This document shows, one piece after another, positions 14,001 through 60,200 of a stretch of DNA of 64,000 bases (position 1 is the first letter of the stretch; the number at the start of each line of letters is the position of its first letter). The notes beneath the pieces were generated by a model that had not been told where the DNA came from, did not search any database, and worked only from the letters and a program-made list of their open reading frames with translations. This stretch comes from Antedon mediterranea (taxonomy: Eukaryota; Echinodermata; Crinoidea; Comatulida; Antedonidae), in the NCBI RefSeq assembly GCF_964355755.1, contig NC_092680.1, positions 21,739,001-21,803,000 on the forward strand, written 5' to 3'. The position numbers and the translations under genes are program-made.

Positions 14001-17000
14001 CATTCCACTGTGTATGGTTTAAAAGAAAAAATGATTTTAAAATGTTATCGTGCAGCAATTTGTTTTGTTCAATGATATTTATTTTTCAGAACGACATCTT
14101 TCATTGACCAAATGAACACCTGGTATGATTTGAAGAACAAGACTGAAGTTCTTGATAAGCGAATCTTCTCTAAAATGCAGGTGAGAAAATATAGCATGCA
14201 AATAAACAATGATTTGTGTATATGTATGTTTATTTCTCATTACCTAAATACAGTACAGTCTATGGTTCACCCATACTGTAGTTCCTGGAAGTTGTAATGT
14301 ATTGTTATTTGGACGTCTTAGACATATCATACTTTCTATTTCAGCAAAGCATTGGTACATGTGGGTTGACTGGAGTTGATCGTCTGCTCTGTTTCATGAT
14401 TGTACGGGAACTACAAAACTTTTTGGCCATTCTAGAACGAGGTGTGCTAAGGGATAAGCAATGGCTGGATATGTTTGGTAGTCTTATGAAATCTCTTAAT
14501 CCTGTCAGAGGATTAGTAGGTAATCTTTTTAAATTTATTTGTCTATTGATTTTTTGAACTTCCCAGTAAAAACACTTATTTATTATGTGTGGTTAATTGT
14601 TTCTATCATATTTATATTCTTTTCTCGTTTTAATGCCAACGTATTTTTTTTTCATTTTAATGCCAACGTATTTTTATTTAGAAAGAGATACTGAATCTAG
14701 TCAACTGCACTTGTTTAGTAAACAGTAACTTTTCACAACCTAAATTTAATACTATCTGGCTGAAGGACGATGATGAATATATCCGTAACATACTTTTATC
14801 AAATGAAAATCAGTGCATTCTACATCCATCTTAATATTAAGACCACAATATTCAATCCTCAAATTCAATTCTGTTAACAATAGTAATACACATAATTAGA
14901 GTATATTTATTAAAAGAAGAACTGGTTTCAGTTTCGGTACATTGATAAAACATTTCAACAACTTTTCTTTTGTACAGCTAACCCAGCAAAGCATTATTCA
15001 CAATTCATAAACAAAGCCAACAAAATGTGGCAGCCTTTTATCATTATGGTGCTAAAAGTGGGACAGATGCAGTTACTACGGCGACTCATTGCTAATGACC
15101 TTAAGTTCACTTGCAAATTTGACTCTAATTTCTTGTCAAATGGATTGGAAACAATGAACAAGTAAGTCTACTTATACAGCAGTTTATATTTATTATTCTT
15201 TATCATAAAACAATAACAAACAAATAACTACAAAGTAAGTGGCAGGAAACACAAAAGGGAACTAAATCCCTATGACAAGAGCCTGTGAATCCTCAAGTAG
15301 CACATAAAGATAAAATATAGCATTTCAATAAATATATCGGCAAACAAAAATATCAAGTGTTTGCCCACACTTACAAATACATTGTATACAGTACGAACAA
15401 TATTTAGCTCTGTCTACACTATCAAACTAGTTTGACAAAAATGTGTGATGTGCCCAAATATAGTGGTGATATGCTCAAATATGGTAATGATATGACATCA
15501 TCATGTCCATATATATATGAGTACATCACATTTTTTACGTCACATAAATGTGATAGTGTAGACAGAACTTTAATTTTAATAAATTTTGAATTTTTAGGGG
15601 ATTACTAAAGGATGTAGAAGCTCACTATCAAGACCCAACTTTACCGTACCCTAAGGAAGAGAACCCACTGATGTATGAACTATCATCTTACCTTGAGTCT
15701 GCTGGGTTCTGCCAACCACTTGCTAAGGTCAATATAAATTACATCTTTAACACATATAAATACAATTATATTAGGTGTACTGTAGCCATGCCATACAACC
15801 CAACCTATTACAATTATATTAGGTGTAACCATGCCATACAACCCAACCTATTACAATTATATTAGGTGTAGCCATGCCATACAACCCAACCTATTACAAT
15901 TATATTAGGTGTAGCCATGCAATACAACCCAACCTATTACAATTATATTAGGTGTAGCCATGCCATACAACCCAACCTATTACAATTATATTAGGTGTAG
16001 CCATGCCATACAACCCAACCTATTACAATTATATTAGGTGTAGCCATGCCATACAACCCAACCTATTACAATTATATTAGGTGTAGCCATGCCATACAAC
16101 CCAACCTATTACAATTATATTAGGTGTAGCCATGCCATACAACCCAACCTATTACAATTATATTAGGTGTAGCCATGCCATACAACCCAACCTATTACAA
16201 TTATATTAGGTGTAGCCATGCCATACAACCCAACCTATTACAATTATATTAGGTGTAGCCATGCCATACAACCCAACCTATTACAATTATATTAGGTGTA
16301 GCCATGCCATAAAACCCAACCTATTACAATTATATTAGGTGTAGCCATGCCATGCAACCCAACCTATTACAATTATATTAGGTGTAGCCATGCCATACAA
16401 CCCAACCTATTACAATTATATTAGGTGTAGCCATGCCATACAACCCAACCTATTACAATTATATTAGGTGTAGCCATGCCATACAACCCAACCTATTACA
16501 ATTATATTAGGTGTAGCCATGCCATACAACCCAACCTATTACAATTATATTAGGTGTAGCCATGCCATACAACCCAACCTAGTACAATTATATTAGGTGT
16601 AGCCATGCCATACAACCCAACCTATTACAATTATATTAGGTGTAGCCATGCCATAAAACCCAACCTATTACAATTATATTAGGTGTAGCCATGCCATGCA
16701 ACCCAACCTATTACAATTATATTAGGTGTAGCCATGCCATACAACCCAACCTATTACAATTATATTAGGTGTAGCCATTCCATACAACCCAACCTATTAC
16801 AATTATATTAGGTGTAGCCATGCCATACAACCCAACCTATTACAATTATATTAGGTTTAGCCATGCCATACAACCCAACCTATTACAATTATATTAGGTG
16901 TAGCCATGCCATACAACCCAACCTATTACAATTATATTAGGTGTAGCCATGCCATACAACCCAACCTATTACAATTACAGTATATTAGGTGTAGCCATGC

Positions 17001-20000
17001 CATACAACCCAACCTATTACAATTATATTAGGTGTAGCCATGCCATACAACCCAACCTATTACAATTATATTAGGTGTAGCCATGCCATACAACCCAACC
17101 TATTACAATTATATTAGGTGTAGCCATGCCATACAACCCAACCTATTACAATTATATTAGGTGTAGCCATGCCATACAACCCAACCTATTATAATTATAT
17201 TAGGTGTAGCCATGCCATACAACCCAACCTATTACAATTATATTAGGTGTAGCCATGCCATACAACCCAACCTATTACAATTATATTAGGTGTAGCCATG
17301 CCATAAAACCCAACCTATTACAATTATATTAGGTGTAGCCATGCCATGCAACCCAACCTATTACAATTATATTAGGTGTAGCCATGCCATACAACCCAAC
17401 CTATTACAATTATATTAGGTGTAGCCATGCCATAAAACCCAACCTATTACAATTATATTAGGTGTAGCCATGCCATACAACCCAACCTATTACAATTATA
17501 TTAGGTGTAGCCATGCCATACAACCCAACCTATTACAATTATATTAGGTGTAGCCATGCCATACAACCCAACCTATTACAATTATATTAGGTGTAGCCAT
17601 GCCATACAACCCAACCTATTACAATTATATTTGGTGTAGCCATGCCATGCAACCCAACCTATTACAATTATATTAGGTGTAGCCATGCCATACAACCCAA
17701 CCTATTACAATTATATTAGGTGTAGCCATGCCATAAAACCCAACCTATTACAATTATATTAGGTGTAGCCATGCCATACAACCCAACCTATTACAATTAT
17801 ATTAGGTGTAGCCATGCCATACAACCCAACCTATTACAATTATATTAGGTGTAGCCATGCCATACAACCCAACCTATTACAATTATATTAGGTGTAGCCA
17901 TGCCATACAACCCAACCTATTACAATTATATTAGGTGTAGCCATGCCATACAACCCAACCTATTACAATTATATTAGGTGTAGCCAAGCCATACAATTAC
18001 AACCCAACCTATTACAATTATATTAGGTGTAGCCATGCCATACAACCCAACCTATTAATGAATGTTTCGTATTCATTGAGTATATTTTCATTTCTAAAGC
18101 TCTGTCTACACTATCACACTAACGCCCGTATTCTTAAACCGGACTTTAGTCGTAGTTCGAGCTAAAACTAAAAAAATGACGTCATTTTAATTCATAAACC
18201 GAACTTCAACTAAATCACCGACTAAATCAGGCCAACCTCGACTAAATCGAGACGGATTTTGATCGATTTTTTTAGTCCTGGAGGGGGCAGACTAAATGGT
18301 CGACTAAATGGTTTTTAAACGATGTTTATAAAAAACGTAACAGTCATTGAGTTGTTATATTGGCCAGATATTGAAGAATGAAATATCTATATTTATATTA
18401 GCTTAATTAAATATACATTGGTATAAATTATAATAATGAAAATCATCTTTATTTACAACTGTATACAAATTACATTATTTTCTTCGCGCAAGTCCGACTT
18501 GAGCTACGTCACGCCATAGCGACAATGGGAGATGCGGCAATTCACCACGCGATGAAATGTTTAGGGGGCCTAGCGCTTTCTTGTCATGCTATGAAGTGCG
18601 TGGTTCGTGGCAATCATACTTTGTTGGGGGCCTAGAAAATATAAAAGTTACCGTACCGCCATGGTTCCTAATTATATTTTTAAGATTTTATTTGTTGTTA
18701 ATCAAATATACTTCACTGTTAAATTAATACTGATATTGTTCTAATAATTAACGATTAAAATTATTTTTCATGTATATAGTCCTGATGCGTAAAAAGTGTT
18801 GTAAGAAATGGAAAGTGATATCAATGCGCAAAATTTCGTCTGCTCCTCAAATACTCTCTTGTCATTGGCCAATGTATAGCCTTTGTTACTCAGACGTGTG
18901 CAACTCGACTAAAAGTTCGACTTCATTAAGTCGAACTGCAAACTTCGACTACTTCGTTTTTGAATCGAATTTGAAGTAATAGCTCGAACTACAACTTTTC
19001 CAAGTCGAACTTCGAACTACGACTAAAGTCCGGTTTAAGAATACGGGCGTAAGTGTGACAAAAAAGTGTGATGTGCCCACATATGGTAGTGATATGCCCA
19101 AATATGGTAGTGATATGAAATCATCATGTCAATATAGGGGCATTTTTTGTCACATAAAGTTTGATAGTGTAGACAGAACTTTACTGTCCTATTCAACTCT
19201 GCAATTTTTCAACTCGTGTAAATATTTAAACCCATTCAACTCATAAACGTTCCTAACTGGTATTTAGTTAAGCATTTTCTTGTATTTTCAATTTGTTTCT
19301 TTTGTAGATTTATATCACAACAAAGCGAGTGCCATATCTGTCTTTAATCACCTTCCTATTTGTGACGTCACAGTTACCAAAACTCCAATATGTCAAGTCT
19401 GTAGGTAAGTGATCAAACTTAGTGTGTTCTATTGTTTATCATCTTCAAATTATTATGCTGAGATGTAAATCCGGAGCGGATCCACAATTTGTTATCATTA
19501 GTCTATCAAAAAGAAGTTTGTATTTTGATTGTAGTTGTCAAACGGAAGGATTGCGCCTATAGTGCTACTGCTGGATCCGCCCCTGGAGATAGTATTTTAA
19601 AATAGTCCTTTCGTCCAGTGCCCACCAGAGGAGAGGCATAAGCCAATACGTCTGAGGCAGATACTAGATGCTATAAGAGTCAGCAGTGCTGATTTCAAAT
19701 GCCTAACAGGACCCCAGCTCCATATACAGCACCCGATATTCTCCCATCCAAGCTCTAACCAGGCCCAACGTTGCTTAACTTCGGTCATCTAACGAGAACC
19801 AGTGTTTCAACATGGTAAGATCTTGCAGTATATCCATGCCAGTTACTTATATATTATATTGTTTGTGTTTACAGGAAGTATGATTGCTCGTCAGATAAAA
19901 GACCCTATTGATGGACCTCCCTTCATTGCTGGAACCATTACACTTCTCAAGCAGTTCCATTCAGAGAACACCGATCAGTTTCTAGCTCTTCTAGGCCAAT

Positions 20001-24538: not shown

Positions 24539-29847
<5,309 letters not shown>

Positions 29848-29960
29848 AGAAGAATCTGTTTCATATGGCATTCCCACAATGCATCACTCATCAGCAACAG
29901 TCCGAGGTTAGAGAAGAATCTGTTTCAATATGGCATTCCCACAATGTATAATAATAAAGA

Positions 29961-31974: not shown

Positions 31975-34900
31975 ATGTTGCGTTTGGTTTACTTAACATT
32001 GCTGTATTTTTCGCTAAATATCAAACAAATTGATTGCGCTAAGGAACGTACGTACTTTTTGGCGGCCGATGAAATCATATGGGACTACGTTCCGACTGGA
32101 AAGAATGTTGTAACAAATACGTCACTCCCACCAAGGTTAGTCTAAACTTTCTTAGCAAAGAAATAAGATAAGTACCATTACATAGCACGCGCCATGTGGT
32201 ACATCACAGGGCTTACTTCTTTTAGGCCGTGGTGTCTGTACTGTATAAAACCATGGAGTAATTTACTCCATGATAAACTATGATAAATAATAACATTTTC
32301 CCACAGTTGGGAAATATTATAATACAAGTATTGAATATGAAGTCATGGAGGAAGGCTAATAATTCTAAAGCTCTGTCTATACACTATCAGATTTAGATGA
32401 CAAAAAATTTGTGATATGCCAATATATGGACATGATGCTGTCATATAATCACTACTATATTTGGGCACATCACACTTTTTTGGTCAAATTAGTTTTATAG
32501 TGTAGACAGAGCTTTACGCAGTTGCATATTCATACCTGGAAACTAATAACAAAACAAAAACTTAATTTTTTAGCGAAAATGGAATTGGAACAATATTTAG
32601 GAAAGTGGTGTACAGAGCATATAGTGATGATACATTTACAGCGGCTCTAGAGCATCCTGATTGGCTGGGATATCTTGGACCAATCATCTATGCAGAAGTG
32701 GGAGAAACGATCATCATTCACTTTAAAAACAACGCTACAAAAGCAGTCAGTCTTCACCCCCATGGGGTCTTTTATAACAAAGACTCTGAAGGTAAGCTCA
32801 ATTGTTTCAAAATAAAACTACTCCACAAAGAAGATTGGTTGGAGGAGTGGGCGTGGTGGGGGTAAAGAGGCCCACTCTACTCCCTTTTGACAGATTGTTT
32901 CAATAATATACTCCACAAATAAGGGGGTCGGTGATCCAGGGACCCATACTCTTTGCCCATTTGTGACAGCTTTTTTTTTGTTTACAAATATTATTCCAAA
33001 AAGAAGGCAGGGCCAGGGATGTAATTAAGTTAATAAGTCTAAGAATTTCAGCTGGTGTTGTTTGAAAGAGGACGTAGGTTATTGAGATTACTACAACATC
33101 ATCAACATCAAATAAGGTTACACAGTCTTTGCAGTCTTTGTTTGGTAAAATTTGATTCAAAATAATCATTATCTGAGATACTTAAGCATAAGTTATTTCT
33201 CATTAGGAGCACTTTACGTGGATGGTACAAAAGGTAAAGACAAGTTAGATGATGATATTCCACCAAATGGAGAATACAAATACACATGGATTGCTAACGA
33301 GAGAGCTGGTCCAGCTAATGATGATACTAACTGCATACCGTGGATGTACCATTCACATATCAAAAGTCCACACGGAACAAATAGCGGCCTTGTTGGGTCA
33401 ATGATCATTTGCAGAAAAGGTTGGTATCAATTTTTTTCTTTTTCTTGTTGCACTCAACTTTAAATTGAATAATCAAATAAGGCATAGTTTTATGTTTGTT
33501 TTGGTTTTTTTTATTTTTTAACTTTGTATGTGCAATAAGTTAGTCCTGCACTAAATAAATATTTTCAACATGAAGATGACTAATATGGTAACAGCTACCA
33601 ATATTTAGATTGATCAATAATAAGTTTGTTTGACTCGGCCTGAGTATGAAGAAGCTGCTCCAGTCCTCCAATGTATTTTTTTAGTTTTCAAGATTGCATG
33701 ATGTATAATTTTTTCTCTCAATGTTTCTTAAGTCTAAGCAGACCAGGAAACAAGGTTAAGTACAAGAGTATTTTAGCATTATTGTATTTCTATGAACTTG
33801 CTGCACTTCATAGATAACAAGTACTTCAGTTATTTTTAGGTCAAACAATAACTTTTTAACAATAAAAAAAAAGTACCTGAATAATCTGTTATGCAAAACA
33901 GTAACACAACCAGGAAGGAGTGAACAAATAAAGTAATACTTTTCAAAACATGTACTACTTCCTTTTGTTTCTTCATCTAAGTTTGGCACCTTTCCATTTT
34001 ATAATAGTAGGCCTATTCTATTTCTAGAGAAAGTGATTTTCAACTATTTTTTGTAAAATAATTATGATATTCATATTTACAACATGCATGTTGTTTATTT
34101 CAGTATTCAATGATATCAAATAACATAATACAGTAACCCAACACATAAGATTATATTCTTGTCTGATGGAGTATATCATCTGTATTAATATTGTGTTTTA
34201 TGTCCTTTATTATTCAACATAAAAAAGACTGGAGAGATTCAATGGGTTTACCTGGATTGAACAGTAGACAACAAATATAGGACATGGTTGGGTTTACCTG
34301 GATTGAACAGTAGACAACAAATATAGGACATGGTTGGGTTTACCTGGATTGAACAGTAGACAACAAATATAGGACATGGTTGGGTTTACCTGGATTGAAC
34401 AGTAGACAACAAATATAGGACATGGTTGGGTTTACCTGGATTGAACAGTAGACAACAAATATAGGACATGGTTGGGTTTACCTGGATTGAACAGTAGACA
34501 ACAAATATAGGACATGGTTGGGTTTACCTGGATTGAACAGTAGACAACAAATATAGGACATGGTTAGGTTTACCTGGATTGAACAGTAGACAACAAATAT
34601 AGGACATGGTTGGGTTTACCTGGATTGAACAGTAGACAACAAATATAGGACATGGTTAGGTTTACCTGGATTGAACAGTAGACAACAAATATAGGACATG
34701 GTTGGGTTTACCTGGATTGAACAGTAGACAACAAATATAGGACATGGTTGGGTTTACCTGGATTGAACAGTAGACAACAAATATAGGACATGGTTAGGTT
34801 TACCTGGATTGAACAGTACACAACAAATATAGGACATGGTTAGGTTTACCTGGATTGAACAGTAGACAACAAATATAGGACATGGTTGGGTTTACCTGGA

Positions 34901-37900
34901 TTGAACAGTAGACAACAAATATAGGACATGGTTAGGTTTACCTGGATTGAACAGTAGACAACAAATATAGGACATGGTTGGGTTTACCTGGATTGAACAG
35001 TAGACAACAAATATAGGACATGGTTGGGTTTACCTGGATTGAACAGTAGACAACAAATATAGGACATGGTTGGGTTTACCTGGATTGAACAGTAGACAAC
35101 AAATATAGGACATGGTTAGGTTTACCTGGATTGAACAGTAGACAACAAATATAGGACATGGTTGGGTTTACCTGGATTGAACAGTAGACAACAAATATAG
35201 GACATGGTTGGGTTTACCTGGATTGAACAGTAGACAACAAATATAGGACATGGTTGGGTTTACCTGGATTGAACAGTAGACAACAAATATAGGACATGGT
35301 TGGGTTTACCTGGATTGAACAGTAGACAACAAATATAGGACATGGTTGGGTTTACCTGGATTGAACAGTAGACAACAAATATAGGACATGGTTGGGTTTA
35401 CCTGGATTGAACAGTAGACAACAAATATAGGACATGGTTGGGTTTACCTGGATTGAACAGTAGACAACAAATATAGGACATGGTTAGGTTTACCTGGATT
35501 GAACAGTAGACAACAAATATAGGACATGGTTGGGTTTACCTGGATTGAACAGTAGACAACAAATATAGGACATGGTTAGGTTTACCTGGATTGAACAGTA
35601 GACAACAAATATAGGACATGGTTGGGTTTACCTGGATTGAACAGTAGACAACAAATATAGGACATGGTTGGGTTTACCTGGATTGAACAGTAGACAACAA
35701 ATATAGGACATGGTTAGGTTTACCTGGATTGAACAGTACACAACAAATATAGGACATGGTTAGGTTTACCTGGATTGAACAGTAGACAACAAATATAGGA
35801 CATGGTTGGGTTTACCTGGATTGAACAGTAGACAACAAATATAGGACATGGTTAGGTTTACCTGGATTGAACAGTAGACAACAAATATAGGACATGGTTG
35901 GGTTTACCTGGATTGAACAGTAGACAACAAATATAGGACATGGTTGGGTTTACCTGGATTGAACAGTAGACAACAAATATAGGACATGGTTGGGTTTACC
36001 TGGATTGAACAGTAGACAACAAATATAGGACATGGTTAGGTTTACCTGGATTGAACAGTAGACAACAAATATAGGACATGGTTGGGTTTACCTGGATTGA
36101 ACAGTAGACAACAAATATAGGACATGGTTGGGTTTACCTGGATTGAACAGTAGACAACAAATATAGGACATGGTTGGGTTTACCTGGATTGAACAGTAGA
36201 CAACAAATATAGGACATGGTTGGGTTTACCTGGATTGAACAGTAGACAACAAATATAGGACATGGTTAGGTTTACCTGGATTGAACAGTAGACAACAAAT
36301 ATAGGACATGGTTGGGTTTACCTGGATTGAACAGTAGACAACAAATATAGGACATGGTTGGGTTTACCTGGATTGAACAGTAGACAACAAATATAGGACA
36401 TGGTTAGGTTTACCTGGATTGAACAGTAGACAACTAATATAGGACATGGTTAGGTTTACCTGGATTGAACAGTAGACAACAAATATAGGACATGGTTGGG
36501 TTTACCTGGATTGAACAGTAGACAACAAATATAGGACATGGTTGGGTTTACCTGGATTGAACAGTAGACAACAAATATAGGACATGGTTGGGTTTACCTG
36601 GATTGAACAGTAGACAACAAATATAGGACATGGTTGGGTTTACCTGGATTGAACAGTAGACAACAAATATAGGACATGGTTGGGTTTACCTGGATTGAAC
36701 AGTAGACAACAAATATAGGACATGGTTGGGTTTACCTGGATTGAACAGTAGACAACAAATATAGGACATGGTTGGGTTTACCTGGATTGAACAGTAGACA
36801 ACAAATATAGGACATGGTTGGGTTTACCTGGATTGAACAGTAGACAACAAATATAGGACATGGTTGGGTTTACCTGGATTGAACAGTAGACAACAAATAT
36901 AGGACATGGTTGGGTTTACCTGGATTGAACAGTAGACAACAAATATAGGACATGGTTGGGTTTACCTGGATTGAACAGTAGACAACAAATATAGGACATG
37001 GTTGGGTTTACCTGGATTGAACAGTAGACAACAAATATAGGACATGGTTGGGTTTACCTGGATTGAACAGTAGACAACAAATATAGGACATGGTTAGGTT
37101 TACCTGGATTGAACAGTAGACAACAAATATAGGACATGGTTGGGTTTACCTGGATTGAACAGTAGACAACAAATATAGGACATGGTTGGGTTTACCTGGA
37201 TTGAACAGTAGACAACAAATATAGGACATGGTTAGGTTTACCTGGATTGAACAGTACACAACAAATATAGGACATGGTTGGGTTTACCTGGATTGAACAG
37301 TAGACAACAAATATAGGACATGGTTAGGTTTACCTGGATTGAACAGTACACAACAAATATAGGACATGGTTGGGTTTACCTGGATTGAACAGTACACAAC
37401 AAATATAGGACATGGTTGGGTTTACCTGGATTGAACAGTAGACAACAAATATAGGACATGGTTAGGTTTACCTGGATTGAACAGTAGACAACAAATATAG
37501 GACATGGTTGGGTTTACCTGGATTGAACAGTAGACAACAAATATAGGACATGGTTAGGTTTACCTGGATTGAAAAGTAGACAACAAATATAGGACATGGT
37601 TGGGTTTACCTGGATTGAACAGTAGACAACAAATATAGGACATGGTTGGGTTTACCTGGATTGAACAGTAGACAACAAATATAGGACATGGTTGGGTTTA
37701 CCTGGATTGAACAGTAGACAACAAATATAGGACATGGTTAGGTTTACCTGGATTGAACAGTAGACAACAAATATAGGACATGGTTGGGTTTACCTGGATT
37801 GAACAGTAGACAACAAATATAGGACATGGTTGGGTTTACCTGGATTGAACAGTAGACAACAAATATAGGACATGGTTAGGTTTACCTGGATTGAACAGTA

Positions 37901-40900
37901 GACAACAAATATAGGACATGGTTGGGTTTACCTGGATTGAACAGTACACAACAAATATAGGACATGGTTAGGTTTACCTGGATTGAACAGTAGACAACAA
38001 ATATAGGACATGGTTGGGTTTACCTGGATTGAACAGTAGACAACAAATATAGGACATGGTTGGGTTTACCTGGATTGAACAGTAGACAACAAATATAGGA
38101 CATGGTTGGGTTTACCTGGATTGAACAGTAGACAACAAATATAGGACATGGTTAGGTTTACCTGGATTGAACAGTAGACAACAAATATAGGACATGGTTG
38201 GGTTTACCTGGATTGAACAGTAGACAACAAATATAGGACATGGTTGGGTTTACCTGGATTGAACAGTAGACAACAAATATAGGACATGGTTAGGTTTACC
38301 TGGATTGAACAGTAGACAACAAATATAGGACATGGTTGGGTTTGTGAAAGTGGAGAAGTAGGGTATTGATATATTTTTGGTTTGGGATTTCTACACCCTG
38401 CAGAGTGTGATTAGAATGCTTCATCATGATACCACTTGATTTGCACAAATTAATGAAATGTATTGCATCAGGGCCGTTGGTAAGGTTTCAACCTGACCAC
38501 TTTTTCACAAAGCATTTGACAATTCCCTGTTGCTTCAACAGAGTATTGCTCCCCTTTCTTGCGATCAGCTCATCACTTTATTTCTTGTGGCTACACTAGC
38601 TCTGTGCATTGAGGAGAGTTTCTAATTTAATTCAATAACAGGTTCAGTCAATTCTAGCTATGTTCACTTCCTTTCCTTTGTAGAATACTCCAATGGGAAC
38701 AAATAATTTTGCTTTCGGTGTACTGTCTACAGTATCAAAGTATGCGATGTGTCCATAATGGATGATGATGATGATGTCATATCAATATATTTGGGCATAT
38801 TACTACCATATTTGGGTACATCACACTTTTAATTGTTGTCAAATTAGTTTCACAGTGTATACAGCTTTTAATACAATTTTGTATTAAAATACAAAATTGT
38901 TTTTCCTTATTGAGAATTAAAATACTTTACTCTTATCAAATGAATGCCTATATAACTTGGACATGGGCCAATTATGTTTTTTTTGTATTTCGCAATATCC
39001 TATACCTTAAAAAAAAACCGAATGAATCATGTGAGTTTAGAGTTAGGTAAAACAAGATAAGCTTTTCATGTTTGATTTTTAATAGGAATGAGAAAAATTG
39101 TGGGTTAATGTCGCTGTTATCGCCCCTATATCCATCTCACAGTTTGTCAACAACAACATTAATGTAGGCTTAACTTACAGAACTTGATTAAATGTGTAAA
39201 TTCTTCACTAATAATAATCGTTTTTTGCACAGGTATCTTAAATAAAAATGGACAAAGGTCAGATGTAGATAAAGAGTTTGTTTTGATGTTTACGGTAACT
39301 GATGAGAACTTAAGCTACTACTTGGATGAAAACATCCAAGAATTTGCTACTAGCCTCGTTAATAAAGGTAAACAAAGTAATTTATAGTCTGTGAATATAT
39401 AAATAATTTACATTGCTTAAACATGTGTGGTTCCTCTTAGTATAGTGCTTGGTGGTTGAGATACTTGACTACTCAGATCCCATCAGATGTACAGATTTGT
39501 TTTCATGACAAAAAAACATCTCCACCCCCAAAGTTTTGTTTAAGAATTTTAAAACCACCATTAATACTGAATGAATTCTATTAAAATGGGCAACAAGCGT
39601 ATATTATTTAAATGGTGTAACTATTTAATTTGAAAAAAAGGCCTGTAAAAAGTAAACAAAGACTGCAATATTTTCAGTAGTAAATTTAGAGGTTTTACAA
39701 AACATGAGAGTCATTGCTACACATCCTAACTGCCTAATTAGTATTTGATGAGTTTTTATATAGTTTTGCTGGCAGTGTGAATGGGGTATATACTATAACA
39801 GTTATACATGTATCTACATTTCATTTTTTTTTATTTCTTAATTTTATTGGTATTTTAGAAGATGAAGCTTTCCAGGGGTCTCTTCTGAAAGATGGAATCA
39901 ATGGGTATTTGTATGGCAACTTGCCTGGATTGGAGATAAATCAAGGTGATAAGGTTGAATGGCATGTGTTAGGCATGGGCACTGAAGCTGATATACACAC
40001 TGCTTACTTCCATGGCAATATTCTTGTACGTTTTGCAACACATTTTGGTATAATTTCACCTTAGTGATGTTGTTAAATTTGTTTATTTATAATAGAGGTT
40101 CTTAGTTTCCACCAGTACGGTTGGTAAGGTTTCAACCTGACTACTTTTTGACAGAGGTCAACCCACACAAGAGATGAGATTGTTTTCTCTTTTTTCGATC
40201 CTTTACCACTTTAATTCTCGTGGCTATAGAGTTGCTTTTTTTCTTTCAGGATGTCCGAAATCACCGAACTGACTCAATCAGTGTAGAACCAGCAGCGTTC
40301 TTCACAGGTAGAATGGTTGCAGATAACGTAGGGTCTTGGCTCATAACCGATGCGGTCACATCACACTATGAAGGTGTGTATGTGATGTTTCTTTTTAATT
40401 TTAAGAAGTCTGAAAATGTTCTTCCAATAAGCTGTTGGTTAAAAAACTTGGTACCCAATTAAAAACAAGTAGGGTATCGTTTTCTAGTGTTCTAATCTCT
40501 GTAGACACTTCTCATTTCTATTCTATAAATATTTTCACTAGATGGGTCTCAAGCTATTTATACTGTGACCGGACAGGAGCCTACACCAATGACAGGAACT
40601 GTAAGAGAGTATTTTATTGCAGCAGTTGAAATAGAGTGGGATTATTTGCCTATTGGTGAAGATCCACTCACATCGGAAAACAATCTGTGAGTATTTTATA
40701 AATAAATTTAGTATTGTCTTCGTGGTTTATACATTGATTTTTTAACTTCATAAAATGTTTGTTTAATTCAATGTGTTTTTGTTTTACTAAAGAAACATGT
40801 TTCTTGCTATAGCATAAAAGATCATATGCTCAGAACAATGAGTAGTTTATATAAACTATTTAATGTGTAATTGTTCTCAAATGGTTTTCATTTTTCATTG

Positions 40901-43900
40901 TCTTTGTCATTGTCAAACTGTATTATGCCAAAGGTCCTTAATTCAACTGGATGGACTACCCTCGTAAAATATTAGTTGAACAAATAAAATATTTATCTAT
41001 GTGATTTCCTTAGTTCCATTATTGGAAGTTTCATTATAAACATAGAGTTGTGTATTTTGTAGGGAGCCATTTTTCAACAAAGCAGCCAACAGAATAGGAT
41101 CAGTTTACAAGAAAGCTGTTTATCGAGAGTACACAGATGCGACATTCACACAACAAAAAGTGCGAACACCGGAGGAAGAACACCATGGTTACTTGGGACC
41201 TGTCATCAAAGCTGAAGTTGGCGACGTGATTAATGTAACATTCCGTAACCTAGCTACCAGGAATTACAGTATACATGCTCAGGGTGTGATGTATGATAAG
41301 ATGAATGAGGGAATGTTTTATAATGATGGAACTTCAGGTTTGTGGATTATTCATTTTAGGCTGCTTTGTGAATATGATAGATGGATATTATAGGCCTATG
41401 TTTATTAATTTGTAAGTGAAAAAGGTATTGTATTGTTTAGAACCTAGGCCTGTCGTATTAATATTTCATGACTTAAGCTCTGTCTAACTATCAAACTAGT
41501 TTGACAAAAAAACTGTGATGTGCCCAATAGTGATTTACCCAAATATGGTAGTGATATGACATCATCATGTCCATATATTGGCACATCACATTTTTTTTAT
41601 CATATACAGTTTGATAGTGTAGACAGAGCTTTAAATTAAAGGACATTGAACAAATCTTTCAGAGGAAGACAGAGTTGATGCTAATGTGCAGCCAGGCGAA
41701 ACTTACAGTTACTATTTGTCAGTTCCTGATAACTATGGACCAATGGTGGGTGATGAAGATTGCCTTACATGGATGTACTATTCAGGTGTAGATCTTCAAA
41801 GAGATTTGTACTCTGGTCTTGTTGGCCCTTTGATTACATGCAGACCAGGAACATTATCATCCACAACACAGGTAAACATACATGTATGGATTTGTACTCT
41901 GATCTTGTTGGTTCTTATATGAACAATGATGTCTAATATAAATATAATAATTAGTTAACATTGCACCGTTTACACTTTACATTTATTTATGTTTTGTGAC
42001 ATCCAATATGTCAGTTCAATGTATGTAAATTTAATCAGATTTATTTTATTGGAATTTTTGTAGAAATTCCTGTTTTTCTTCACAACTGATGAGAACTTAA
42101 GTTGGTATATTGATGACAACATTGCAGCAAATACAACTGATCCAACGTTGATGAAAGATGATGAAGACTTTATGGCATCCAATAGAATGAGTGGTACGTT
42201 ATGAGTGGCCTGTTGTCCATGCGCCCAATACCCTGAAAACTGGACAGACGTCTATCAACTGAAAAACGGAAATGTGTGATTATTTAGAAGAGCACAATTT
42301 ATAAATACACGAATGATTTTGTTTACATTGATTTGATTTTATATAAATTCGAATTACATTATTCATTCATTCATTCATTTCGTACTTAATATTCATAGGA
42401 TGAAAAAAACAGTACATAATCAACAAAAGTTACTAATCAAATTAGGCAAGAGTTTAAATAAATTATATTTTTTCATTAGTGAAAGTAAACTTGAACGGAC
42501 ATTGATACAAAAACTTAAATTTTCTAGTGATGATACCATGTTTTTCCCTTTGCAGCTATCAATGGATTTTCTTTCTCAAATCTTCCTAGCATTCATGTCT
42601 GTCAAGGTGATGATGTAAGTTGGCATTTGATGTCACTAGGGAAAGAGACGGACCAAACAACGGTCTATTTCCATGGTAACACCTTCATATTCAATGGCGC
42701 CCGCACAGACTCGGTCGCCCTATTTCCTGGAATTTATCAGACTGTGGTAATGACACCAAGCTTATCAGGTTTGCTAACAGTTTTTTTTACCAGAAAGGGC
42801 TTTTAAGGCATTTTTTTTTCTGTTTTTGCCAAATGTCTATAATCAATCCATTTTTTTTACTGAATAATAAGGTCAATGGATTATTGAGAGCCAATCAGCT
42901 GTGCAAAGAGACAGTGGAATGATTGCAAGATTCTTAGTTGGGAACTGTAACAGTCTACCAACTCAAAGCTACAAGGAGCATTGTGATCGTACATACTACA
43001 TTGCCGCTGTAGAGATGCATTGGGATTTTGCTAAGGAAAAATATGATTATATTCGCAATATTTCCCTTCAAGATCCGGACAGGCAAGTTTTTTAACCAAG
43101 ATTTTTATTATTTATGGGTTTTTTTTCGCAAAAGCTGTGATGTAGATGGAGGCCATATACCACAGGCTATGAGATTGATTGTCAAAGTTGATACTGTTAC
43201 CCTATGCTAAGCTCTGTCTACACTATCAAACTAGTTTGGAAAAAAAGTGTGATGTGCCCAAATATGGCAGTGGTATAACATCATCATGTTCATATATTGG
43301 CACATTTTACATTTTGTTGTCACATAAAGTTTGATAGTGTAACAGAGCTTAAAAATACCATATATGACCGAATATCAAGTTACTCAAGTATAATACCACC
43401 CCTTTGATAATTTATTCCGAATACAATCCCACCCCTTATTATTTGTTTATGCTTGATTATATAGTACCGTTGTTAACAATGTACATCTGGTTTGTTATGA
43501 CAGTTCTGGTCACGTCTTTGTCACTCAAACCGAGACATTAATTGGAAGTGTTTACAAAAAGGCCCTCTATCGTCAGTATGAAGATGAAGAGTTCAAAGTT
43601 CAAAGTGAACATGAAACATATCTCGGAACATTAGGACCACTCATCAGGATGCAAGTTGATGAAAAGATCTGCATTGTGTTTAAAAACATGGCCTCAAGAA
43701 ATTACTCAATTGACGGGCAAGGTGTCGTTGTAAGCAATAAAATGAAATCTGTAGCACCCGGTGAAACTTACACGTACGTTTGGAATGCACCTACTAGCGT
43801 CGCTCCAACAAATACTGACCCAAATTGCGTGGCGTATTCATACTATTCAACTACGGACCGTGTTCGAGATATCTATTCAGGCTTGATAGGTCCTCTAGCG

Positions 43901-45625
43901 GTGTGTAAAAAAAATGTTCTTGATAATTCAGGTGCGAGGAAGGATGTTGATCGTGAATTTGCGCTTCTCTTTATGGTTATGGATGAAAATCAGAGCTGGT
44001 ATCTTGATGAAAATATTAACCTATTCACAGACACGCCGGCCATGGTGGATACGTCTGACCCAGAATTTGAGGAGAGCAACTTAATGCATGGTAAATATTG
44101 AGACAATTACAAAAAAAACCATTGTTGATAAATTTAGAAAGACTTTATTCACAATTCTTATAGTTGAATAGCATAGTTATTTTTTTATTCCCAATATGTA
44201 TATTTCAATAGCCAACTTGTAGTGTTCATTCTTGAAATTTTTTCTTTTTAACTAAAATATTAATAATTAAATTCAGTACAGTATCTTCTTGTCTCACGTA
44301 AACAGCCTAATTGACCTAATTGACTGTAACATTATAGAATAGAAATATTATTTACACAAACTTAAAGGGCCTTTGTTTTATTTCAGGAATCAATAGCTTT
44401 ATTTACACAAACTTAAAGGGCCTTTGTTTTATTTCAGGAATCAATGGCTTTATTTACACAAACTTAAAGGGCCTTTGTTTTATTTCAGGAATCAATGGCT
44501 TTATTTACACAAACTTAAAGGGCCTTTGTTTTATTTCAGGAATCAATGGCTTTATTTACACAAACTTAAAGGGCCTTTGTTTTATTTCAGGAATCAATGG
44601 CTTTATTTACACAAACTTAAAGGGCCTTTGTTTTATTTCAGGAATCAATGGCTTTATTTACACAAACTTAAAGGGACTTGAAATGATAAAAGGAGAAACA
44701 GTCGACTGGTACCTGATTTCCATGGGAACAGATGTTGATTTACATTCTGTGCATTTTCATGCTCAAACGGTAACCTACCAGACAGACACGACGCAGCGAG
44801 CCGATGTTTTTGAACTGTTTCCAGGTGTGTTTCAATGTTTACCCTTTCCACACACCTTTTACACACACATACCATACAAAACATCGGTGTTGACACTCTG
44901 TGTATGGAAACACTTGAGTTTTGCTAAATGACGTGGAACTGGTATTTGACCAAATGATGTTTTAATAATTGTCTGTTGTTCTTTGATGTAAAATTTTCTA
45001 TTTTCTTTGATTAGATAATTGTTATGGATTTTGATATTTTCAAATAATTATAATAATATAATTTAAAATTTACAATAAAGTTTTTTTGTCAGTTTAATGT
45101 CGCATACTTTCTGTTTTTCTAATTTACATGAACATGAATATTCATGATATGGTTTACATTGCAGGTGTATACAAGACAATTGAGATGGAGCCAGACAATG
45201 TAGGAACGTGGCTTTTACACTGCCACGTCAATGATCACATCTTTGCTGGCATGGAGGCGCTCTTCACTGTTCAAGGTTAGCATAATTTATATCCTCAAAA
45301 CATCATAATGTCATTTATTTTATTTACAATAATTCTACTTCATATTTTTACCCTGATTTTACCTTATTTCCACATTTAATTATAATTTTATTTCATCATT
45401 AATGTACAAAATTGTTTTTTTACCATGTTTTTTTTACAATTATTTCACTTCCCAATCACATTGTGACTTTTGTTGCCAATGTTGAAATAATACGTATTTG
45501 GATAATAATTATATCTTTGTTCTTTTATAGAAGCTGAAAAAGAACCAAGTCGGTCAAAGGTCAACATATGCTCCAGCTTTCTTACATTTCTTACTTTCAT
45601 CATGGTATCAATTCTAGTATACTAA
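31975..45625 (+). CDS. Hephaestin/ceruloplasmin-like multicopper ferroxidase
   Basis: Extracellular ferroxidase family (Fe2+ to Fe3+ with O2 reduced to water). Exons: 31975-32135, 32574-32791, 33207-33419, 39233-39367, 39859-40025, 40250-40373, 40542-40686, 41063-41337, 41663-41871, 42064-42193, 42556-42768, 42872-43082, 43504-44090, 44642-44824, 45165-45275, 45531-45625; 1058 residues in phase. Signal peptide about 1-22 (ends IDCA), then six cupredoxin domains. All four HxH trinuclear-copper motifs are present: SLHPHG, MYHSHI, HSVHFH, HCHVNDH. A type-1 copper site is complete only in domain 6 ([14 protein letters not shown]); the equivalent Cys is Asp in domain 2 ([14 protein letters not shown]) and Ser in domain 4 ([14 protein letters not shown]). 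The hydrophobic C-terminus ([16 protein letters not shown]-stop) has no cytoplasmic tail, suggesting a GPI anchor. The intron after 43082 begins GC, not GT. Confidence 0.92.
32369..32513. mobile_element. MITE family A, copy 6
   Basis: Starts agctctgtctatacactatc, ends tagtgtagacagagct, in ferroxidase intron 1. Slightly diverged interior (gggcacatcacactttttt). Confidence 0.85.
34242..38343. repeat. 46-bp minisatellite, about 89 copies (4.1 kb)
   Basis: Head-to-tail array of a 46-bp unit (gggtttacctggattgaaca then gtagacaacaaatataggac then atggtt). Nearly all variation is at one G/A position (ggttgggttt against ggttaggttt) plus a rare gtaca for gtaga. The variants recur at multiples of the unit, for example acagtacacaac near 34813 and again 920 bp (20 units) later. 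It occupies most of the ferroxidase intron 33420-39232. Confidence 0.97.
38473..38593 (+). repeat. Dispersed repeat B, copy 1
   Basis: Segment beginning gttggtaaggtttcaacctg and ending near ttcttgtggctac matches 40118-40230 with gaps. Unknown family, not seen elsewhere in the window. Confidence 0.6.
38722..38866. mobile_element. MITE family A, copy 7 (diverged)
   Basis: Degenerate ends (ctgtctacagtatcaaagta and cacagtgtatacagct) but the same interior order: tgatgtcatatca, then ttgggtacatcacac, then gtcaaattagttt. Confidence 0.7.
40118..40230 (+). repeat. Dispersed repeat B, copy 2
   Basis: Begins gttggtaaggtttcaacctg, as at 38473, and ends ttctcgtggctatag, just before the ferroxidase exon at 40250. 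Confidence 0.6.
41476..41630. mobile_element. MITE family A, copy 8
   Basis: Starts agctctgtctaactatcaaa, ends ttgatagtgtagacagagct, flanked by TTA on both sides. It lies between ferroxidase exons 8 and 9, 32 bp before the acceptor. Confidence 0.88.
43210..43349. mobile_element. MITE family A, copy 9
   Basis: Starts agctctgtctacactatcaa, ends gatagtgtaacagagct, in the ferroxidase intron that begins with GC at 43083. Confidence 0.87.
44345..44680 (+). repeat. 51-bp array of splice acceptor plus exon start, 6 copies
   Basis: Each unit holds a pyrimidine-rich acceptor (ctttgttttatttcag) and the first 35 or so bases of ferroxidase exon 14 (gaatcaatggctttatttac then acaaacttaaaggg). Potential exon starts fall at 44387, 44438, 44489, 44540, 44591 and 44642, exactly 51 bp apart. 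The last one continues into the conserved exon. The unit is 17 codons and has no stop in the coding frame, so use of an earlier acceptor would add 17-residue repeats and keep the frame. Confidence 0.93.
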
Positions 45626-54200: not shown

Positions 54201-57200
54201 GATTCTAAAAAGTTGTGGTTTTTTTAGCTTACAATAATTCTGGTTTACGTTGTTCTCAGTTTAACTGGAACTTCTCATGTGTCTGACTCTGACCATATTT
54301 TTTCTCCTATTCTCATGAATACTGGTGGAGTATTACGTGTCTATTTAATATATTCCTTAGTTACATATGTTAGCTTAGTTCCTACTTAGACAAAACGCAA
54401 CAACAATGCAAGTGAGTTGACCAATCATAAGCAACAGCTTGGGTGATCCATCGCATTGTGATTGGTCAATGCATTCAAGTGGGAAAGAAGCTTTAGTGAG
54501 TATATCACCTGTTTTATGTAAATGAGTTAAGTAGAGCTTCTTGCTACTGTTGACCTGGCATTGCTTGACCCTAAACTTGATATAATACTAACCGTGTTTG
54601 ACAGCCTGGTTCTCCATCAGGACATGGGTATTTGGCTTCACATGAGTGGTTGCCATCACTTGCTTCCATTCGTTCATAAACAGCTTTGTGAAAATCATTG
54701 TAAAGAATATCCAGCGATGTGACAGCTTCAACTCTCTCCATGGCACAGCGAGGGCGTGATCTGTCGGTGTAACTTGGGGCATCACTTACATAGCAACGAG
54801 CTGCAAAAAAGAACATTTATAAACATCTGAAATTATAAATCTACAAATAAAGGATTTCTGACATTTGAATTAGTTCTTTGTCACTTACATGAAGCACAAT
54901 CTGAGTCATGAGTGCAGACACAGCCTCCCATTATCAATTGTCCCTCATTGCCTTCACATTCTGATTTATTGCGTGTTTGCATTCCTTCAAAGATGGCCTG
55001 TGAAATGCTGATAATCTTGCCAGCTCCAGCAGCATCCATGTAAGCTGTTGATATGGATGTTTTGTGAGGACTTACAATCACACGATGATACCATGGACGT
55101 CTAACATAAAAATTCAAAGATAAAATATGACATTGATTTGAGATCTTGAGCGCTGCTTAGTAAATAAGGTAACTTTAGAAATATGGCAAAATGGTGATGA
55201 CAAACATTTGGAGTTGATGCATGATAATGATGCCAATGAATTACAGACAATGATTATGACAACAATGATGTTTTTTTTATTTAAACATTTTATATTCTAT
55301 ACAAATATTGTATTCCTATGCAGTACTTACTTTGTAGGGTCATATGGACGACTTGACCTATGACCTGGATATGTTCTAAATACTCCACTACGGCAACCAA
55401 TATATGTCCACTTGACATCCTTTAAAAGGTCAAAGTTACGCTTCTTCCATATTGCTTCAATCTGTGATGTTATCAATACATCCGCTCTGAGAAAGTTGAT
55501 AAGAATGTACAGTAGTATTATTATATCAGCTTAAAAAGTTGATAAGAAATGTAATATCAATAAATCAACAATAAAAAGTTGATAAGAAATGTAATATAAA
55601 TAAAATCAACAATAAAAAGTTGATAAGAAATGTAATATAAATAAATCAACAATAAAAAGTTGATAAGAAATGTAATATCAATAAATCAACAATAAAAAGT
55701 TGATAAGAAATGTAATATAAATAAATCAACAAGAAAAAGTTGATAAGAAATGTAATATAAATAAATCAACAATAAAAAGTTGATAAGAAATGTAATATAA
55801 ATACTTCAACTACAAAAATTTGATAAGAATGTCAATCAATAGAGTACATAAGAAACTTGTTATTAGAAATATTTGTTTTATAGAATAAATAAAAGTGTAC
55901 TGAGCTGCCTACTTGATATTCTTCTCAAAGGTTCCATTAGGACATCCTGGATTCTCATTTCCGTTCATAAACTCATGAGCCACCACCGTCTTCTGGCCTA
56001 AGTCATCGTCAAAGATGAACTTGTTTGGGTTACAGTAACATTTTGGTGCAAACTTTATTGATGAATGTTTATAAGTGACTGTTAATCCTTTATATCTAGG
56101 TTCTTTGTTCTTTATATCCATCAAATAATATAAAACTGAAGAAAATAACATATTTAAAACATTAACATATCTTAATCACTTTTTGGTAATCATGTGATGC
56201 AGTTTCAACCAATCACGTCACATATTTACATAGGTGTAATAACCCTTCATCATTCACCTCATGCCATTATTTGTACCATTCCACGAATATAAAACATTCA
56301 TTATTTTCTTTATATAACATCTAAATAGATCCTGTCATTTGAATCAGATTCAATAAAAAGTAATTTAAATGCTTTTTTGGTCTAAATTAGTACATATCTC
56401 TCCAAAAATGTACTTCCGTCGTGCTACAATAGAATACACACATCACTCGTAAAATTGCGGCAGAATGGGCTCGCTGTTCGGTTTTTCAAGTAATGGTATT
56501 AAAAAAAAATTTTTTTAAATGTTCGTACACAACATTTTTTTTAAAGTACTATTTAACGATTGTTAAATAGTTCGTACTATTGCATGCCATGTGACCTACA
56601 ATCATCCAATCAATTTATTTAGGTGTTATACAAAACTAAATAATACATAGGCCATTTTGTTCTTTGAAAACATATTTATGGTGATATGTTGTAAATAAGA
56701 GATTTTGTGTAAACAGAGAACTGGTTCCATGCAATTACATTAAAGGAGTGAAATGGGAAAATAAAAATTTCTGAAAATTATAATACAAAACAAACAATAA
56801 ATACTTTTTCCGTCTTTTTTCAGACGTTTCCTAGCCAACGAACTGTTGTATTCGGTTAAAATGTTGAAAACACTCATTGGTAGAGATGACTTATCTTGAG
56901 GTTCATTTGAACGACGGAACGTCTACAACAAATCAGAAATAATGAAATAAATAACGTCTACAACAAATCAGAAATGAAATAAATTACATCATACATTGTT
57001 TTTTTGTAATATTTATTGCTATCCATAAAATACACAATATAATACATTATAGTTTGAAATGAACAAAATCATACAAAAACTAAATAATTATACAGTTATG
57101 GGATAGCAGAGGATAACCCTTTAAGCTGGGAAGCTTGTTATGGGATAGCAGAGGATAACCCTTTAAGCTGGGAAGCTTGTTATGGAATAGCAGAGGATAA

Positions 57201-60200
57201 CCCTTTAAGCTGGGGAGCTTGTTATGGGATAGCAGAGGATAACCCTTTAAGCTGGGAAGCTTGTTATGGGATAGCAGAGGATAACCCTTTAAGCTGGGAA
57301 GCTTGTTATGGGATAGCAGAGGATAACCCTTTAAGCTGGGAAGCTTGTTATGGGATAGCTGCAGAGGATAACCCTTTAAGCTGGGAAGCTTGTTATGGGA
57401 TAGCAGAGGATAACCCTTTAAGCTGGGAAGCTTGTTATGGGATAGCAGAGGATAACTCTTTCAGCTGGGAAGCTTGTTATGGAATAGCAGAGGATAACCC
57501 TTTAAGCTGGGGAGCTTGTTATGGAATAGCAGAGGATAACCCTTTAAGCTGGGGAGCTTGTTATGGGATAGCAGAGGATAACCCTTTAAGCTGGGGAGCT
57601 TGTTATGGAATAACAGAGGATAACCCTTTAAGCTGGGGAGCTTGTTATGGGATAGCAGAGGATAACCCTTTAAGATGGGGAGCTTGTTATGGGATAGCAG
57701 AGGATAACCCTTTAAGCTGGGGAGCTTGTTATGGAATAGCAGAGGATAACCCTTTAAGCTGGGGAGCTTGTTATGGAATAGCAGAGGATAACCCTTTAAG
57801 CTGGGGAGCTTGTTATGGGATAGCAGAGGATAACCCTTTAAGCTGGGGAGCTTGTTATGGGATAGCAGAGGATAACCCTTTAAGCTGGGAAGCTTGTTAT
57901 GGGATAGCAGAGGATAACACTTTAAGCTGGGGAGCTTGTTATGGAATAGCAGAGGATAACCCTTTAAGCTGGGAAGCTTGTTATGGGATAGCAGAGGATA
58001 ACCCTTTAAGCTGGTGAGCTTGTTATGGAATAGCAGAGGATAACCCTTTAAGCTGGGAAGCTTGTTATGGGATAGCAGAGGATAACCCTTTAAGCTGGGG
58101 AGCTTGTTATGGAATAGCAGAGGATAAACCTTTAAGCTGGGAAGCTTGTTATGGGATAGCAGAGGATAACCCTTTAAGCTGGGGAGCTTGTTATGGGATA
58201 GCAGAGGATAACCCTTTAAGCTGGGAAGCTTGTTATGGGATAGCAGAGGATAACACTTTAAGCTGGGGAGCTTGTTATGGAATAGCAGAGGATAACCCTT
58301 TAAGCTGGGAAGCTTGTTATGGGATAGCAGAGGATAACCCTTTAAGCTGGTGAGCTTGTTATGGAATAGCAGAGGATAACCCTTTAAGCTGGGAAGCTTG
58401 TTATGGGATAGCAGAGGATAACCCTTTAAGCTGGGGAGCTTGTTATAGAATAGCAGAGGATAAACCTTTAAGCTGGGAAGCTTGTTATGGGATAGCAGAG
58501 GATAACCCTTTAAGCTGGGGAGCTTGTTATGGAATAGCAGAGGATAACCCTTTAAGCTGGGAAGCTTGTTATGGGATAGCAGAGGATAACTCTTTAAGCT
58601 GGGAAGCTTGTTATGGAATAGCAGAGGATAACCCTTTAAGCTGGGGAGCTTGTTATGGAATAGCAGAGGATAACCCTTTAAGCTGGGAAGCTTGTTATGG
58701 AATAGCAGAGGATAACCCTTTAAGCTGGGGAGCTTGTTATGGAATAGCAGAGGATAACCCTTTAAGCTGGGGAGCTTGTTATGGGATAGCAGAGGATAAC
58801 CCTTTAAGCTGGGGAGCTTGTTATGGAATAACAGAGGATAACCCTTTAAGCTGGGGAGCGTGTTATGGGATAGCAGAGGATAACCCTTTTGTTATGGGAT
58901 AGCAGAGGATAACCCTTTAAGCTGGGGAGCTTGTTATGGGATAGCAGAGGATAACCCTTTAAGCTGGGAAGCTTGTTATGGGATAGCAGAGGATAACCCT
59001 TTAAGCTGGGGAGCTTGTTATGGAATAGCAGAGGATAACCCTTTAAGCTGGGAAGCTTGTTATGGGATAACAGAGATAACCCTTTAAGCTGGGGAGCTTG
59101 TTATGGGATAGCAGAGGATAACCCTTTAAGCTGGGGAGCTTGTTATGGGATAGCAGAGGATAACCCTTTAAGCTGGGGAGCTTGTTATGGAATAGCAGAG
59201 GATAACCCTTTAAGCTGGGAAGCTTGTTATGGGATAGCAGAGATAACCCTTTAAGCTGGGGAGCTTGTTATGGGATAGCAGAGGATAACCCTTTAAGCTG
59301 GGGAGCTTGTTATGGGATAGCAGAGGATAATCCTTTAAGCTGGGAAGCTTGTTATGGGATAGCAGAGGATAACCCTTTAAGCTGGGGAGCTTGTTATGGA
59401 ATAGCAGAGGATAACCCTTTAAGCTGGGAAGCTTGTTATGGAATAGCAGAGGATAACCCTTTAAGCTGGGGAGCTTGTTATGGGATAGCAGAGGATAACC
59501 CTTTAAGCTGGGAAGCTGGTTATGGAATAGCAGAGGATAACCCTTTAAGCTGGGAAGCTTGTTATGGGATAGCAGAGGATAACCCTTTAAGCTGGGGAGC
59601 TTGTTATGGAATAGCAGAGGATAACCCTTTAAGCTGGGGAGCTTGTTATGGGATAGCAGAGGATAACCCTTTAAGCTGGGGAGCTTGTTATGGGATAGCA
59701 GAGGATAATCCTTTAAGCTGGGGAGCTTGTTTCAGAAGGGGTCCTTATTCTTTATCCAGAAAACAATGTACAAACTAGAGTAGTTACTACAAATAAAAAT
59801 GATCATAGATGAAGAATATTTTCGTTCTCAGACAATTATACTTACAGAGTCTGTATCAGCAAGGCTAAAAGCAAATGAATAATCTGATTGGTTGAGAGAT
59901 GTATAGTAATAAGTGGCGGGCATTATTAACACCTTCACACCGTCTGAAAAATCACCCTAAAATTAAAATATCTTGGTTAAATAAGATATATTATATAAAT
60001 AACTATCTGTTAATTTTAACTGATTTGCTTTTTAATGTAGTTTTGCTGTTTATTTATGTATTTTGATGTTCAAATTGTTTTTATGGCCTATAGCAGTAAT
60101 TTTTAATATTTTAAAGTATTTTTAACCAATTGTATACATATTTTGTAAATTGAAACGCAAATCAGCATTTTGCTGCCATGTTTTAATCTTTTTGCTTTGA

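Follow-up and report, generated by a model that had tools for sequence, protein, structure and literature searches.

A 51-bp minisatellite with six splice acceptors at an intron/exon boundary of a ceruloplasmin/hephaestin-like gene, probably spliced mainly to the last acceptor

A ceruloplasmin/hephaestin-like multicopper ferroxidase gene in the window (the whole stretch of DNA that was analysed, 64,000 nucleotides long, whose numbering is used throughout) carries a 51-bp minisatellite that straddles the boundary between its intron 13 and exon 14, and that multiplies the splice acceptor sixfold. We believe that this array is probably a young, mirage-type VNTR that is spliced mainly to the last of its acceptors and yields hardly any functional ladder of isoforms, or none. 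The evidence comes from the structure of the array, from the position of the splice junction beside the iron site of the encoded enzyme, from a paralogue that does not carry the array, and from comparison with similar arrangements in lancelets, in humans and in engineered splicing substrates.

Structure and extent of the array

Read unit by unit, the minisatellite occupies positions 44348-44675 of the forward strand and comprises 6.43 copies of a 51-bp unit, TTATTTACACAAACTTAAAGGGCCTTTGTTTTATTTCAGGAATCAATGGCT, which consists, in circular order, of the last 17 bp of the intron and the first 34 bp of the exon. Tandem Repeats Finder (TRF) calls the array at 44348-44679, with a period of 51, 6.5 copies, 99% matches and a score of 650. 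Units 2-6 are identical, while copy 1 (44348) has a single mismatch, G to A; a seventh, partial copy holds the first 22 bp of the unit (44654-44675), after which the sequence continues as unique exon. The original prediction had described an amplification of the intron end and the first bases of exon 14, and both the TRF call and the unit-by-unit reading bear this out; its start at 44345 needs to be moved slightly, since the array proper begins at 44348.

Five identical copies of 51 bp, with a blastn self-match at E 5e-51, rule out chance as an explanation for the array. A genome search of the 354-Mb assembly, which covers one haplotype, found it at one locus only; an origin as a dispersed repeat or transposable element was rejected on account of this single genomic locus and because no outlying copies are present in the window. 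No decayed older copies were found beside the array when its neighbourhood was aligned and compared with shuffled sequence: the left 60 bp score no higher than the mean of the shuffles, and the score of the whole unique stretch of intron 13 lying 5' of the array (44091-44347, forward strand) was reached by 24 of 300 shuffles. As in mirages, the units lie in tandem across an exon-intron boundary and carry its splice signal, and the array shows the high identity that goes with concerted evolution in mirages, where edge copies escape homogenisation: here copy 1 alone is one base off, although six copies are a small sample.

Six acceptors in an open frame

The six acceptors, TTTCAG/GAATCAAT (a slash marks the splice junction), are identical from -39 to +8, and every full copy presents the same context, CCTTTGTTTTATTTCAG/GAATCAAT; local sequence therefore favours none of them, the last included. 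Acceptor 1, with its first exon base at 44387 on the forward strand, would define an intron of 296 nt and an exon of 438 nt and would add five units, or 85 aa, to the protein. On the same strand, acceptor 2 (44438) would add four units (68 aa), acceptor 3 (44489) three units (51 aa), acceptor 4 (44540) two units (34 aa) and acceptor 5 (44591) one unit (17 aa); acceptor 6, at 44642, is the start of exon 14, which runs to 44824 (183 nt).

When exon 13 is joined to any of these acceptors, the frame stays open and no stop is met (6/6), and each additional unit would insert 17 residues; copy 1 reads GINSF. Six equivalent acceptors spaced by 51 bp, and a preserved frame that allows 0-5 extra 17-residue units, had both been predicted originally, and both claims hold. 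Preservation of the frame is unremarkable in itself, its chance being about 0.2-0.3: a period that is a multiple of three has a prior of 1/3, and when the final 17 bases of other introns in this gene are put into the unit, it is open in 7 of 10 cases, as it is with 97% of random pyrimidine-tract-like ends. The open frame is thus no evidence for selected isoforms, and selection for frame, as it might be read from the 51-bp length, is unsupported.

No usable donor was found in the 51-bp unit, so that the array can give rise to alternative acceptors only; we rejected cassette exons and recursive splicing inside the units, as there is neither a donor nor an AG/GT junction.

The splice junction lies beside the iron site

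Exon 13 (about 43520-44090, forward strand, the upstream end not being fixed) ends CATG/gtaaat and codes for ...EESNLMH+G; its junction with exon 14 is in phase 1. The exon upstream of the array (43604-44089) matches ceruloplasmin (1kcw) in phmmer at E 8.7e-123, while the short exon pieces of the gene were not recognised by Pfam. Exon 14, taken from acceptor 6 (44642-44824, forward strand, 183 nt), ends CCAG/gtgtg, codes for ...ELFPG, and is gap-free against both ceruloplasmin and the paralogue described below; exon 15 (45165-45275, forward strand, 3' end approximate) carries copper ligands together with the equivalent of D1025 of the iron site. An exon end elsewhere in the gene, GGACAG/gcaagt at 43080-43089, possibly belongs to a GC-AG intron.

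In ceruloplasmin, the iron site of domain 6 is formed by Glu935, His940 and Asp1025 together with Glu272, and mutagenesis of hephaestin showed its counterparts of E935 and H940 to be critical (PMC11817551). The E and H near the end of exon 13 are the equivalents of iron ligands E935 and H940, and the equivalent of Asp1025 (1kcw numbering) is kept in exon 15; with the HxVHFH and HCHxxDH motifs, the domain-6 copper and iron ligands of a ferroxidase are in place. The residue before the join is the His940 equivalent, which places the join midway through domain 6, beside the iron site, and not at the start of that domain. The extra segment had been placed next to the start of domain 6, and the 1kcw alignment corrects this: the insertion point is directly behind the His940 equivalent. 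Only the protein made from acceptor 44642 (with exon 15) aligns gap-free to 1kcw residues 895-1037, and none of the matched ceruloplasmin-family sequences has an insertion at the join point.

An array-free paralogue and the age of intron 13

A second ferroxidase gene, which is free of the array, is found on the same contig near 6.37-6.38 Mb (G000:C11:6378168-6379103). Its domain-6 exon runs unbroken across the site, with no intron there, and it is colinear with the exon sequence downstream of the array's last acceptor; this colinearity indicates that the last acceptor yields the ancestral product. An AlphaFold model of domains 5/6 of the paralogue reached a mean pLDDT of 36 and was discarded.

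The window gene itself is interrupted by a phase-1 intron at the corresponding site of its domain 4 (acceptor 42556). Because of this homologous intron we do not favour the view that intron 13 was newly gained through the array, even though the paralogue has no such intron in domain 6; its absence there can be put down to intron loss or to parallel gain.

Origin in repeat-rich surroundings

That the copies are nearly identical suggests that they expanded or were homogenised recently. Since the array begins with 22 bp of exon-derived sequence (TTATTTACACAAACTTAAAGGG), it did not start by cleanly duplicating the single boundary seen today, and an earlier partial duplication or a deletion at the edge is needed. 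The window, with a GC content of about 33%, is rich in minisatellites as detected by TRF, and the high rate of tandem duplication in the genome that this implies would be a sufficient cause for the array. A TRF scan of protease, kinase and globin loci (L016-L080) gave no second clear array over a matched exon edge, which is a weak negative because matched edges are not always exon edges.

Very large minisatellites are located at 34243-38343 (46 bp x 89), within an intron of the same ferroxidase gene, at 15781-18057 (43 bp x 53) and at 57095-59731 (42 bp x 63). A 64-bp x 2.2 array at 29803-29946 starts inside an apparent last coding exon and passes the stop codon into the 3' region, and it is the second array in the window that touches a coding edge; from recognition by eye, we take its gene to be threonine 3-dehydrogenase-like. 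The ferroxidase introns also contain similar stretches at 41500-41635 and 43205-43345 (TGATGTGCCCAAATATGG ... GTTTGATAGTGTAGACAGAGCTT), which resemble small mobile-element copies. On G000:C3, at about 19.6-25.1 Mb, more than 15 closely similar myosin-head exon matches (profile 342-408) are spread over 5.5 Mb, which suggests that myosin genes or pseudogenes form a large family of recent origin there.

Choice among the acceptors

We suggest that tandem duplication of the intron 13/exon 14 boundary made the minisatellite, so that a pyrimidine tract, an AG and a possible branch region would come with every unit; this branch region may be the exon-derived ACAAACTTAAAGGG, 20-30 nt ahead of the next AG. 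The spliceosome would then join exon 13 mostly to the last acceptor, since only 44642 has the complete 183-nt exon with its donor behind it, the others having 34 nt of exon before the next intron end, and the five upstream units would be removed together with the intron. Copy number would drift through slippage or unequal exchange; variation between individuals is plausible by analogy with the 6 versus 3 units of a lancelet globin gene. Any minor use of upstream acceptors would place 17-residue insertions behind the His940 equivalent, giving a protein that is probably inactive, and no useful ladder. The conserved frame leaves room for some tolerated use of upstream acceptors, and a mild slowdown of splicing that depends on copy number is possible.

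Originally two outcomes had been offered side by side, a neutral array with one dominant acceptor and a ladder of isoforms, and we favour the former over the latter: the conserved protein results from the last acceptor alone, the others inserting 17-85 residues at the sensitive position, and both the lancelet arrays and the beta-globin analogues point the same way. The ladder, in which several acceptors are used to produce ferroxidase with 0-5 extra 17-residue units in domain 6, the spread being set by the copy number of the allele, is unlikely. It is consistent with six acceptors of matching local sequence that all leave the frame open, and with acceptor 1 being transcribed first; moreover, repeat units in IFI6 do serve as donors (PMC4526556), and transcripts that keep the repeat are frequent among human boundary repeats (PMC2812944). 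However, each insert would come immediately after one of the enzyme's iron ligands, the lancelet mirages in PMC3087553 and PMC3902484 come without reported aberrant mRNA, and matched ceruloplasmin-family sequences are without an insertion at the join. Less likely still is a copy-number-dependent splicing rheostat at the iron site, where all six acceptors would be used measurably and repeat number would either set the isoform ladder or tune the amount of active enzyme.

We give even less credit to a dampening effect, in which identical acceptors bind U2AF and U2 together and slow the removal of intron 13, causing a copy-number-dependent drop in ferroxidase with few variant proteins. Double occupancy does slow splicing in vitro, and some substrates with duplicated acceptors are very inefficient (PMC5389562), but this evidence is in vitro and mammalian only, and the lancelet mirages are described as not disturbing regular splicing (PMC3087553). 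That the repeat number or the whole array is an assembly artefact is very unlikely: one lancelet mirage is reported to have been apparently misassembled in a draft genome (PMC3087553), but at about 330 bp the present array fits well inside one long read, its flanks are clean, it occupies a single locus and its first copy is a variant.

The array constitutes a natural test of how the spliceosome chooses among six acceptors with matching local sequence, the main variables left being position and downstream exon context.

Comparison with known systems

Structures of this kind are already known; the gene is a new one for them, and so, probably, is the lineage. The lancelet mirages (Adh3, BflGb6, BflGb9, TnC and PGBD5) are likewise boundary minisatellites with duplicated splice signals. 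In the lancelet globin gene BflGb6, the 3' end of the intron and the 5' part of exon 2 are duplicated, with 6 versus 3 units in two haplotypes (PMC3087553); the ferroxidase array is similar in affecting the same side of the boundary and in having up to six units. Lancelet Adh3 has somatically unstable units of 10 to 72 bp (PMC3087553), and the 51-bp unit falls inside this range, while it is shorter than the 150-160 bp units of the lancelet globins. RT-PCR suggests regular splicing of lancelet mirages (PMC3087553), and those of Adh, TnC and PGBD5 are described as being without aberrant mRNAs (PMC3902484). The ferroxidase array differs from them in its gene and probably in its lineage: the GC content of about 33%, and a search for the GFP family that gave no hit (though its control was silent as well), speak against a lancelet genome. 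A cytochrome oxidase search turned up no mitochondrial contig.

In the human IFI6 gene (6-16/G1P3) a minisatellite also multiplies a splice site; a pair of downstream repeat units act as donors, so that three mRNA species arise (PMC4526556). There it is donors that are multiplied, and their use has been demonstrated, while the ferroxidase array multiplies acceptors. Variable tandem repeats in human segmental duplications alter intron/exon structure in a comparable way, and among recent human paralogues most boundary repeats that change introns (66%) also have transcript support for the repeat-retaining form (PMC2812944); these cases differ in that they concern recent paralogues and mostly exon-internal repeats or novel introns.

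The beta-globin constructs of Reed and Maniatis (1986), re-used in PMC5389562, resemble the ferroxidase array in that a short stretch of exon lies between identical acceptors. When 14, 55 or 205 nt of exon followed the proximal site, only the distal site was used in vitro, and inefficiently, and concurrent occupancy of two acceptors by U2AF or U2 snRNP made splicing slower in vitro (PMC5389562). Those constructs are engineered and hold two copies only, in contrast to the six natural copies here. A mirage-type array in an iron-metabolism gene, in a genome that is probably not that of a lancelet, would widen a phenomenon known so far mainly from cephalochordates.
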